Shown: piece after piece, positions 24,513-31,819 of the stretch
Layout: each line of letters opens with the position of its first letter
Position numbering within the stretch: the stretch's first letter is position 1
Assembly: GCA_025361365.1 (NCBI GenBank)
Contig: JANYAM010000126.1
Span: 1-33,445 of the forward strand
Direction of reading: 5' to 3'
From: Opitutus sp.
GTDB taxonomy: Bacteria; Verrucomicrobiota; Verrucomicrobiia; Opitutales; Opitutaceae
Length of the DNA stretch: 33,445 nucleotides
Position numbers and translations under genes: made by a program
Notes under the pieces: model-generated
The model's input: the letters and a program-made list of their open reading frames with translations, nothing else
What the model was told of the DNA's origin: nothing
Databases searched by the model: none

Positions 24513-25052
24513 TTAAAGGCAAATAGCTTTGCTGATTTCCGTCGCTTTGTCAGCGGTGCTCAGCAATGCAACCAGATGCAGGCCGAATTCCACCGCCGTG
24601 CCGGCGCCACGGGAGGTGGTAATTTTGCCATCCGTGACAATGCGTTCGGCGGCGAGGATGGCGGGCAGCTCGTTCGCTACCGAAAAATGCGCCGTGTAAC
24701 GCCGGCCGGCCAGTAGCCCCGCGTCATGCAGCACCGTGGGCGCGGCGCAGATGGCGGCCAGCCACCGGCCGGCCGTGTGTTGGCGCCGGGCGATCTCGAG
24801 CACGCGCGCATCAGCGCGAAGATTTTTCACCCCGGCGCCACCGGGCAGAAATACGAGATCAAAGTCCTGCGCCTGGACGGCGGACAGGGCTGCGTCCGCA
24901 TGGGCGGTGATGCCGCTGCGGCCGGTGGCGTGGCGGTTCTCGTTGAGGGATGCGACCGTGACTTCGATCCCCGCGCGGCGCAGCAGGTCGACGGGCGCCA
25001 GCGCCTCGATTTCCTCGAAACCATCGGCAAGCAACACGAGCACGGTGGGCAT
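24513..25052 (-). CDS. DJ-1/PfpI family protein
   Basis: 179 residues, the normal size for the DJ-1/YajL branch. The nucleophile elbow is LAAICAAPTVL with C102, and the conserved acidic partner is E14 in ADGFEEIEALAPVDLLRRAG. FLPGGAGVKNLR (68-79) and TSRGAGTAVEFGL near the end are further family marks. Members have been described as glyoxalase III or deglycase-like enzymes and redox-responsive chaperones; the true substrate is unsettled even for well-studied members. The gene is divergent from the SDR gene at 25233, and its start lies only 12 bases from a large palindromic repeat element, so its promoter probably lies within or against that element. Confidence 0.93.
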   Translation of the reverse strand: MPTVLVLLADGFEEIEALAPVDLLRRAGIEVTVASLNENRHATGRSGITAHADAALSAVQAQDFDLVFLPGGAGVKNLRADARVLEIARRQHTAGRWLAAICAAPTVLHDAGLLAGRRYTAHFSVANELPAILAAERIVTDGKITTSRGAGTAVEFGLHLVALLSTADKATEISKAICL

Positions 25053-25064
25053 GGTGGAAGTGAA

Positions 25065-25224
25065 CCACTAATTGGCACTAATGGGACATTAATCTTCGTC
25101 CCCTGTCATCCTGAGCGAAGCGAAGGATCCAGTCGGGCGCAGGAAACTGGATTCCTCGTTTCGCTCAGAATGGCAGGCAGGGGACTTCGGTCTGGATTAG
25201 TGGGAACTTAGTGATGATTAGTGG
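25065..25224. repeat. Composite palindromic element (CACTAAT arrays around a GTCATCCTGAGCGAAG-type hairpin)
   Basis: A roughly 160-base near-palindrome fills the spacer between two divergent genes. The left outer arm has 7-base units at 25066 (CACTAAT), 25076 (CACTAAT) and 25087 (CATTAAT). The right arm has the mirrored units at 25217 (ATTAGTG), 25207 (CTTAGTG) and 25196 (ATTAGTG). The spacing is 10 then 11 bases on both sides. The inner arms are 25111-25133 and 25146-25168, matching at 20 of 23 positions as inverted copies, with a 12-base loop. It could be a non-autonomous mobile element of the MITE/REPIN type; no transposase lies nearby. See findings for the wider family. Confidence 0.85.
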
Positions 25225-25232
25225 TGCCTTCC

Positions 25233-26132
25233 ATGTCCTCCCTCTCTGGCAAACGCCTCGTCATCTTCGGCTGCGGCTATGTCGGCTCGGCCCTGGCCCG
25301 CGCCGCGCTCGCAGCCGGCGCGCAGGTCGAGGGTCTGACGCGCAACCCGAAGAAGGCTGCGGCCTTGCGAACCGCCGGCCTGGCGAAAGTCGTGGTGGCC
25401 GATCTGTCCACCGTCGATTGGCACGGCCAGATCGCGGGCGGGGCCGATTTTGTGGTCAATTGCGTCAGCTCGGGCGGACCCGACACGTATCGCCAGTCCT
25501 ATGTGGGCGGCATGCAATCCGTGCTGGCATGGGCGGCCCAGGGCCCGGCGCCGGTCAGCACCTTGGTCTACACCAGCAGCACGGCCGTTTATGCGCAGGG
25601 CGAAGGCGCGGTGGTCGATGAGTCCGCTCCCGCGGACGGAGCCACGCCCAACGGGGCCATCATTCGCGAATCCGAGATTCTCCTGCAGCAAGCGTCGGTC
25701 GCGGCCGTGCGCCGGCATTTCATCTTGCGCCTGGCCGGTATCTACGGTCCGGACCGGCATCACCTGCTCGACCAGCTGCGCGCCGGTCTGCCGGTGCTCG
25801 GAGGTTCCGGCAGCCACCGGCTGAATCTGGCGCATCGCGACGACATTGTCGCCGCGATACTGGCCTGTCTCACCGCGCCGGCGGCAATCGGCAGCGGCAT
25901 TTTCAACGTGGCCGATTCGGCGCCGGCCTCACGGGCGGAAGTAGTGGGCTGGCTGGCGCAGCGCCTCGGTCGTCCGGCGCCGGGCTTCGACGGTTCGACC
26001 ACGGCCCGGCGGGGCGGGGCGCCGATGCCGGACCGGATTATCAGCAATGCCCGCATCCAACGGGTCCTCGGCTGGCAGCCGCAGTATCCGGACTACCGGG
26101 CGGGGTTTGAATCGATCCTTGGCACCTCTTGA
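25233..26132 (+). CDS. NAD(P)-binding SDR-family protein (YeeZ-like epimerase/dehydratase)
   Basis: 299 residues from the ATG at 25233. The frame also opens at a GTG at 25221, but that lies inside the repeat element. The Rossmann motif is IFGCGYVGSALARA (G-x-G-x-x-G near residues 12-17), as in the YeeZ branch of extended SDR proteins. YTSSTAVYAQGEGAVVDESA is the usual SSTxVYG strand, and FILRLAGIYGPDR the RxxGIYGPG strand. The classical catalytic YxxxK is not evident, because that position reads NGAIIRESE. This is common in the branch and leaves the reaction unknown. LGWQPQYPDYRAGFESIL at the end is a typical extended-SDR C-terminus. It is followed by the repeat region at 26156. Confidence 0.87.
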   Translation: MSSLSGKRLVIFGCGYVGSALARAALAAGAQVEGLTRNPKKAAALRTAGLAKVVVADLSTVDWHGQIAGGADFVVNCVSSGGPDTYRQSYVGGMQSVLAWAAQGPAPVSTLVYTSSTAVYAQGEGAVVDESAPADGATPNGAIIRESEILLQQASVAAVRRHFILRLAGIYGPDRHHLLDQLRAGLPVLGGSGSHRLNLAHRDDIVAAILACLTAPAAIGSGIFNVADSAPASRAEVVGWLAQRLGRPAPGFDGSTTARRGGAPMPDRIISNARIQRVLGWQPQYPDYRAGFESILGTS

Positions 26133-26155
26133 AAACGTAGTCGGAGCAAACCGGT

Positions 26156-26243
26156 TTTTAGCCACAAAAGAACGCAAGGAACACAAAGACCATCCAGTCA
26201 GGCCGTTCTTCCTTGCGATCTATGCGTTCCTTCGTGGCTAAAA
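26156..26243. repeat. Inverted repeat with CACAAAG/CGCAAGG units
   Basis: Two arms of about 33 bases face each other across a short spacer downstream of the SDR gene. The left arm (26156-26190) starts TTTTAGCCAC and carries 7-base units at 26163 (CACAAAA), 26173 (CGCAAGG) and 26182 (CACAAAG). The right arm (about 26207-26243) is an imperfect inverted copy ending CGTGGCTAAAA. The spacing of 9-10 bases and the CAC/CGC-start units resemble the other repeats of this stretch, though the core sequence differs. It could act as a transcript-end hairpin for the SDR gene, but there is no terminal T-run. Confidence 0.75.
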
Positions 26244-26267
26244 GAAATTTCCAGGAAATTGTGCGTG

Positions 26268-26295
26268 ATTAGTGTCGGTTAGTGTTCATTAGTGG
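26268..26295 (+). repeat. Half-array of three ATTAGTG units
   Basis: Units at 26268 (ATTAGTG), 26278 (GTTAGTG) and 26288 (ATTAGTG) follow each other at exactly 10 bases. This is the right half of the array seen at 25196-25223 and 31792-31819, but no matching left half is present. It ends 27 bases before the ybaB start codon. Confidence 0.75.
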
Positions 26296-26650: not shown

Positions 26651-26726
26651 CCGCGGATGACGCTGATGAACGCGGATCGACTGCAGGATTTGGTTTTAGC
26701 CGTGCCTTTATCCGCGTAATCCGCGG
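26651..26726. repeat. Palindromic repeat with CGCGGAT units between ybaB and recR
   Basis: The left arm has 7-base units at 26652 (CGCGGAT), 26661 (CGCTGAT) and 26671 (CGCGGAT). The right arm has inverted units ATCCGCG at 26710 and 26719, flanked on the inside by a degenerate third copy near 26699-26706. The spacing is 9-10 bases. The element begins 20 bases after the ybaB stop and ends 12 bases before the recR ATG, so any ybaB-recR transcript would carry it as a long hairpin in the recR leader. Confidence 0.8.
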
Positions 26727-26738
26727 GAAATTCTTCTC

Positions 26739-31562: not shown

Positions 31563-31719
31563 CACAGGAGGTAACAGAGGAAAGGCAGGAGATTTTTAAC
31601 CACGGATGGAACCCGGATCAGCACGGATACTGACTTGCCCTGACTTGGTCCCATCCGTGTCGATCCGTGCAATCCGTGGTCCAAAACGTATTCTCCGTTC
31701 TTTCTGTTCCCTCCTGTGA
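31563..31719. repeat. Nested palindromic element with CACGGAT arrays
   Basis: The outermost arms CACAGGAGGTAACAG (31563-31577) and its inverted copy CTGTTCCCTCCTGTG (31704-31718) match at 14 of 15 positions. Inside them, left-arm units lie at 31601 (CACGGAT), 31612 (CCCGGAT) and 31622 (CACGGAT), and right-arm units ATCCGTG at 31653, 31663 and 31672. The unit spacing is 9-11 bases. The whole can fold as one long hairpin of about 157 bases. It follows the M48 stop by 6 bases. Confidence 0.85.
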
Positions 31720-31746
31720 GAATTTCCGCCTGGTCGCCACTTATGA

Positions 31747-31819
31747 CCACTAATTAGGCACTAATCGGAATTGGGATTGGGCCGTTCTGAGATTAGTGAG
31801 TTCTTAGTGTGGATTTGTG
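31747..31819. repeat. Palindromic element with CACTAAT/ATTAGTG arrays
   Basis: Left units are at 31748 (CACTAAT) and 31759 (CACTAAT). Right units are at 31792 (ATTAGTG), 31803 (CTTAGTG) and 31813 (ATTTGTG), spaced 11 then 10 bases exactly as in the element at 25065-25224. The right arm is followed by GGTGCC, as at 25224-25228. The central part is only about 26 bases here, so this copy lacks the inner hairpin of the first one. Confidence 0.8.

Follow-up and report, generated by a model that had tools for sequence, protein, structure and literature searches.

Among described systems, the element reported here stands closest to MITEs, to homing endonuclease elements and to the REP/BIME/REPIN repeats with their RAYT transposases. 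Like our element, MITEs are short, gene-less and intergenic, have inverted ends and are related to a longer form that carries a gene. Homing endonuclease elements, whose enzymes include PD-(D/E)XK members, are likewise small insertions that encode a single nuclease-fold protein and lie in conserved gene gaps, occupied or empty depending on the species. REP/BIME/REPIN repeats, too, are short palindromes dispersed between genes, with a single enzyme family as their partner, and GTAG-tagged repeats are reported to be abundant in Opitutus terrae (PMC3733652). A protein family that bears directly on this work is GxxExxY (TIGR04256/PF13366), which has a PD-(D/E)XK fold and is the same protein that we find encoded inside the arrays described below. 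Among the open-access literature matches listed, GxxExxY proteins receive passing mention, and we found no description of the array family or of arrays flanking GxxExxY genes; the array-element family seems to be undescribed so far.

Anatomy of the DJ-1/SDR spacer

The window, by which we mean the whole stretch of DNA analyzed, is a single contig of 33,445 nucleotides from a 3.56-Mb, 297-contig Opitutus sp. genome. In it, a DJ-1/PfpI family gene (24513–25052, − strand; PF01965, E 1.5e-45), whose product has its nearest named relatives in Opitutia/Opitutus MAGs, diverges from an SDR/NAD-dependent epimerase-like gene (25233–26132, + strand; PF01370, E 1.2e-16 on the longer frame 25221–26132). 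The SDR start was set at the ATG at 25233 from relatives, as the N-terminus MSSLSGKR can be aligned there. With the DJ-1 start codon ending at 25052, the spacer measures 180 bases, and 162 of them (25064–25225) form a nested near-palindrome. A sequence-only reading had described about 160 bases as one near-palindrome; extent and nesting hold, but the composite is not a plain palindrome, since the spacers between heptamers differ across the outer arms (TGG/CAT, GGGA/TTCC) and the heptamers alone match.

The outer arms (25064–25094, + strand, and 25195–25225, − strand) are 31 nt each, 71% complementary and 100 bases apart in a repeat search. They form a mirrored pair of inverted arrays with three CACTAAT-type heptamers each: CACTAAT at 25066, CACTAAT at 25076 and CATTAAT at 25087 on the left, and, going inward from 25223, CACTAAT at 25217, CACTAAG at 25207 and CACTAAT at 25196 on the right. 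Counted from outside, the steps are 10 and then 11 bases on both arms, just as had been read from the letters, and thus lie within the 9–11 base range of the arrays treated below. The pair scores 40 of 42, against a best of 32 in 1000 dinucleotide shuffles, and CACTAAT occurs nine times in the window where 0.5 would be expected. Folded as single-stranded DNA, 25064–25225 has a z of −6.5. The 100-base interior is occupied by a hairpin of the TCATCCTGAGCGAAGCGAAGGATCCAGT family, with arms at 25102–25133 (+ strand) and 25146–25177 (− strand) that are 32 nt each, 84% complementary and 12 bases apart in the same search; the 23-base arm noted earlier is real and forms part of these longer arms. CCCCTG (25100–25105, + strand) and its partner CAGGGG (25178–25183, − strand) are present as claimed, the last two bases of CCCCTG being the usual TG edge of the hairpin.

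A simple scan of 24990–25300 gave no sigma-70 promoter and no terminator, a result that lends no support to the proposal that an insertion had brought promoters or replaced them. An Rfam scan of the window returned tRNA only, a plasmid collection searched with the spacer gave no match, and neither the window nor the comparisons of sites with relatives showed a target-site duplication on inspection by eye. Further arrays lie elsewhere in the window: beyond the SDR gene (about 26150–26294), a further composite in which a single − strand CACTAAT array comes after a CACAAAG-like inverted repeat, a CGCGGAT-type pair with unmirrored steps and a score of 37 (26652–26736), and, within 31601–31819, a CACGGAT-type pair (31601–31678) directly adjoining a CACTAAT pair (31738–31819).

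The Two Repeats Are Dispersed Separately

Searching the window's own genome with the spacer gave 49 matches, the window included, and the others cover only query bases 48–132, so the inner hairpin occurs separately. It usually has the edges TGTCAT...ATGACA and a variable loop. In 24 other copies examined, CCCCTG never precedes TCAT and TG does so in 23, which makes CCCC/GGGG a local feature of the window, outside the usual edge of the family. The outer arrays are dispersed as well: two heptamers ten bases apart, with at most two mismatches, were found at 81 places of the same genome against 4 for a reversed control, and a wider array pattern at 75 places against 1. Most of these places are converging pairs, usually of three heptamers each, and some arrays stand alone; the outer edge of the pairs often reads AACC...GGTT, and their interiors range from about 1 to 400 bases. 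Separate genomic copies of both parts, which the sequence-only reading had envisaged, therefore exist. The wider pattern matched 60 of the 61 genomes of a family sample, with many counts well above control and a number at control level. Two long array interiors in the window's genome encode GxxExxY proteins (TIGR04256, E 1.7e-38 and 4e-34; PF13366, E 8.6e-40 and 2.8e-31). Three relatives have the inner hairpin, or a close variant, beside or inside array elements at five more loci: L338 and L351, where it lies between two arms, and L346, L350, and L357, where the right array alone is clear. Such recurrent nesting may be a mere consequence of gaps that are short and already mostly repeat.

The Outer Arms Are Shared Within the Genus

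The DJ-1 gene was found in 15 of 21 genus genomes, and 14 spacers were readable. CACTAAT outer arrays, read by eye, are present in seven of them (the window's genome, G072, G074, G068, G064, G071, and G079), among them G072, the closest relative as judged by DJ-1 (92% identity), so the outer part is not a recent insertion, which counts against the earlier reading. The sequence surrounding the innermost heptamer of the left arm (GGGACATTAATCTTCGTC) is common to the window and G064, which supports common descent of this outer part. On these comparisons, the outer element is old at the DJ-1/SDR spacer. Measured against the refuting condition set in the earlier reading, the result is mixed. What is shared at the same place is this outer part and not the full composite: the TCATCCTGAGCG hairpin lies inside the outer arms in the window only (1/14), and in the six relatives with outer arms the inner repeats are inverted arrays built on other words (CACGGAT, CGCAGAG, CACGGAA twice, and CACGAAA-like twice). 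Together with the separate dispersal of the hairpin, these other inner repeats bear out the suggestion that one element is nested in another. Single heptamers are altered in several of the seven, the left arm is largely decayed in G074, the right arm is lost in G068 and G064 (loci L281 and L282 lack it), and such decay speaks against the arms being strictly required. The G037 spacer retains a trace of the arrays. Versions without CACTAAT outer arms, which the earlier reading had proposed to look for among relatives, make up six of the 14 spacers, and five of these six carry a different inverted repeat with a period of about seven bases; in the DJ-1/SDR spacers L277, L279, L283, L285, and L287 such a repeat, read by eye, is made of AAGTANC-like units. 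The loci of the DJ-1 protein's nearest named relatives yielded no gene for a GxxExxY protein.

Paired Arrays Bracket Many GxxExxY Genes

Among 38 relatives searched with PF13366, 29 genomes yielded a total of 148 matches; 113 of these matches were taken for scoring, those left out being mostly weaker and partial. Paired arrays were scored in the 130-base flanks with any heptamer allowed, and 75 of the 113 genes reach the threshold of 37 of 42 (71 score at least 38). By comparison, the threshold was reached by 1/225 random positions in the same loci, by none of 113 shuffled flanks (best 32), by 6/113 genes when the steps were set to 6–8 bases, and by none at steps of 12–14 or 15–17. When flank partners were swapped between genes, 15/113 passed because some genes share a word. 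Some of the 38 genes below threshold show arrays at other steps by eye. The window's genome has 12 GxxExxY genes, none of them CACTAAT-type; five score 34 or less and one scores 35. Within the 75 passing elements, the step pairs are identical on both arms in 67, both arms share a word varying around C-R-C-N-R-A-D, and arm-to-arm identity is 94% for heptamers, a figure to which the score threshold itself contributes, and 55% for spacers. The heptamer varies most at positions 2, 4, 5 and 7. In the protein, D72 and K84 (numbered as in L201) are invariant. A PDB sequence search returned four matches at E 0.99–2, none convincing. Six matches to four-helix-bundle proteins (PF05635) were also located.

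In a tree of 112 GxxExxY proteins, in which many forks are unresolved (118 columns for 112 rows), the clades broadly follow words and steps: CACTAAT 10/11, CACTGAT 10/10, CGCTAAT 10/10, CGCGGAT 9/10, CGCGAAG 9/10, CACGGAA 9/9, and others. All six genes of the CACTAAT clade have 10/11 steps, and the window's outer arms fit this clade in both heptamer and steps. Among the passing elements, the 52 pairs with at least 80% protein identity, same-locus pairs included, have no heptamer mismatch, and pairs at 30–40% identity have 2.49. Nearest proteins at different loci differ by a mean of 1.23 word mismatches, compared with 2.24 ± 0.16 after shuffling (300 shuffles, lowest 1.72). The exact same word is found in only 15% of these cases against 5% when shuffled, so the link between word and protein is graded. 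Such co-variation could also arise by joint inheritance without contact.

For a sample of the phylum, 29 new loci were fetched, one of them unscorable, and 8 of the 28 scored reach 37 (6/25 outside the family). Eight plasmid records contain a GxxExxY relative; of six inspected, those of Bacteroides (40) and Bernardetia (38) pass. A Sphingomonas parapaucimobilis plasmid has its GxxExxY gene between fabD and fabG, inside the fatty-acid synthesis genes, with CGCGAAG arrays visible by eye at a score of 32, and the remaining three fail. Viral contigs and phages gave no relative of the GxxExxY queries.

Gene-Less Copies and Variable Gaps

Six genus genomes have a CACTAAT gene, and they contain 7, 11, 19, 21, 28, and 58 CACTAAT 10/11 arrays, compared with 0–33 (median 0) in the other 15 of 21 (p = 0.0012). 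CGCTAAT arrays number 4–110 with a CGCTAAT gene and 0–49 without (p = 0.012), whereas the cross-comparisons of array type with the other gene type gave p = 0.35 (CACTAAT arrays against the CGCTAAT gene) and 0.32. All these counts include arrays beside genes, and the genomes are related, many of them drafts. There are exceptions: G075 has 33 CACTAAT arrays and G071 has 49 CGCTAAT arrays, and the matching gene was found in neither. The nadE/hemL gap, followed in 19 genomes, holds an array-gene-array element in eight (CACTAAT in six, CGCTAAT in two). In G037 it is occupied by a composite, in G068 by a different reading frame together with the relic of a CACTAAT right arm, in G078 by a short CACGGAT-like repeat, and in two genomes by other long inserts; it is just 27 bases long in G062, G065, and G067 and 51–72 bases in three genomes. 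One-sided CCTATAAG-type repeats with a period of about ten bases were seen in L394, L396, and L405, short nadE/hemL gaps without a GxxExxY element. Gene-less elements of the window's genome are cleanly absent from relatives at two sites (L136a against L330 of G070, L133 against L331 of G037) and are also missing at two more (L125 against G070, L142 against G037), where bases around the site are lost too. In the L125, L133, and L142 gaps, other relatives carry arrays of another word.

Near-identical arrays in G064 and G033 were considered as proof that the arrays move by themselves and were rejected, as these copies ride in larger repeats: a larger MITE with duplications of about 5–7 bases, read by eye, in G064, and a larger repeated unit in G033. 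The G064 MITE (L310–L329) is about 190 bases long, has the ends CCTAAATTCCGCAG...GTTTTCTAGG, and contains CGCTAAT arrays in many of the 20 copies fetched.

Discussion

The feature between the DJ-1 and SDR genes consists of two unrelated dispersed repeats, of which one is nested in the other. Our comparisons document the association of genes with arrays, the mirrored steps, the agreement of the arms, the graded co-variation and the presence or absence of elements between species. We consider it probable (about 0.7) that the outer part is a gene-less, MITE-like relic of a GxxExxY-nuclease element that was later invaded by a second repeat. As no GxxExxY gene lies between its outer arms, the window element is classed as a gene-less derivative only. 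That the whole unit is one mobile element brought in by one insertion would fit its overall symmetry, but this is very improbable, given that outer and inner parts are distributed independently, that the hairpin occupies this spacer in one genus genome of 14, and that no second full composite occurs among the 49 own-genome matches.

The arrays might instead be an old regulatory region, with sites for a host regulator on one face of the DNA controlling both divergent genes. OmpR/PhoB-type regulators use 7-base direct repeats at 10–11 bases, and the helical spacing of the heptamers, the location between divergent genes and the conservation of the outer arms in 7/14 spacers are all in keeping with such a role. 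We nevertheless regard it as quite unlikely, because such arrays also flank nuclease genes between co-directional genes, because elements within a single genome have different words, which broadly track the nuclease tree, and because six of 14 spacers have no such arrays and L281 and L282 no right arm. Somewhat less doubtful, while still unlikely, is that the arms act as a base-paired hairpin, in RNA or extruded DNA, for example as the target of a structure-specific nuclease or as an mRNA element, and not as double-stranded protein sites. The strong fold is in its favor, as are spacers more alike between arms (55%) than between elements (36%) and single variants mirrored between arms at 11/98 positions against 6/225 unmatched ones (Fisher p 0.0046, with cells that are not independent). 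The same spacers are, however, far less matched than the heptamers (55% against 94%), which would leave short internal loops at regular intervals.

Under the relic reading, a full-length element would comprise a three-heptamer array, the gene for a GxxExxY PD-(D/E)XK protein and an inverted three-heptamer array. The protein would be an active nuclease that recognizes its own heptamer, with a unit about every helix turn and three units at each end, and that drives insertion or copying of the element into gaps between genes; gene-less copies with the same motif would be driven by it as well. Array recognition and movement by the nuclease are what we infer from the sequence comparisons. The inner hairpin probably entered the outer remnant in the window's lineage, and any effect on DJ-1/SDR transcription would be secondary. 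More broadly, and here we see the odds as about even, GxxExxY proteins may be the enzymes, one gene per element, of mobile elements that form an undescribed class and occur in several phyla of bacteria; each enzyme would read a seven-base word of its own, present three times at either end, with word and enzyme co-evolving, gene-less copies moved in trans, and elements of different words replacing or invading one another in the same gaps; the window would then be a fossil of such rounds. On this account, a nuclease-fold family of unknown function would gain a concrete, testable role, a large set of Opitutaceae intergenic repeats would be accounted for, and the pairs of protein and target word would make up a natural series from which recognition rules could be read.

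Set against known systems, the outer element resembles a MITE in having terminal inverted repeats, no gene and several genomic copies. Array elements differ from MITEs in that their ends are phased heptamer arrays and the product of their partner gene has a PD-(D/E)XK fold and is not a classic transposase; by eye, no target duplication was seen for them. With regard to REP/RAYT systems, GTAG is absent from both strands of 25053–25232, and CGTC occurs once, at 25097–25100 between outer arm and hairpin, and not on the other strand, so neither tag stands at the base of the hairpin; in addition, the linked protein family is another, and each arm is an array and not a hairpin of its own. Array elements are set apart from homing endonuclease elements by the inverted arrays of heptamers at their two ends and by gene-less derivatives that keep these ends.
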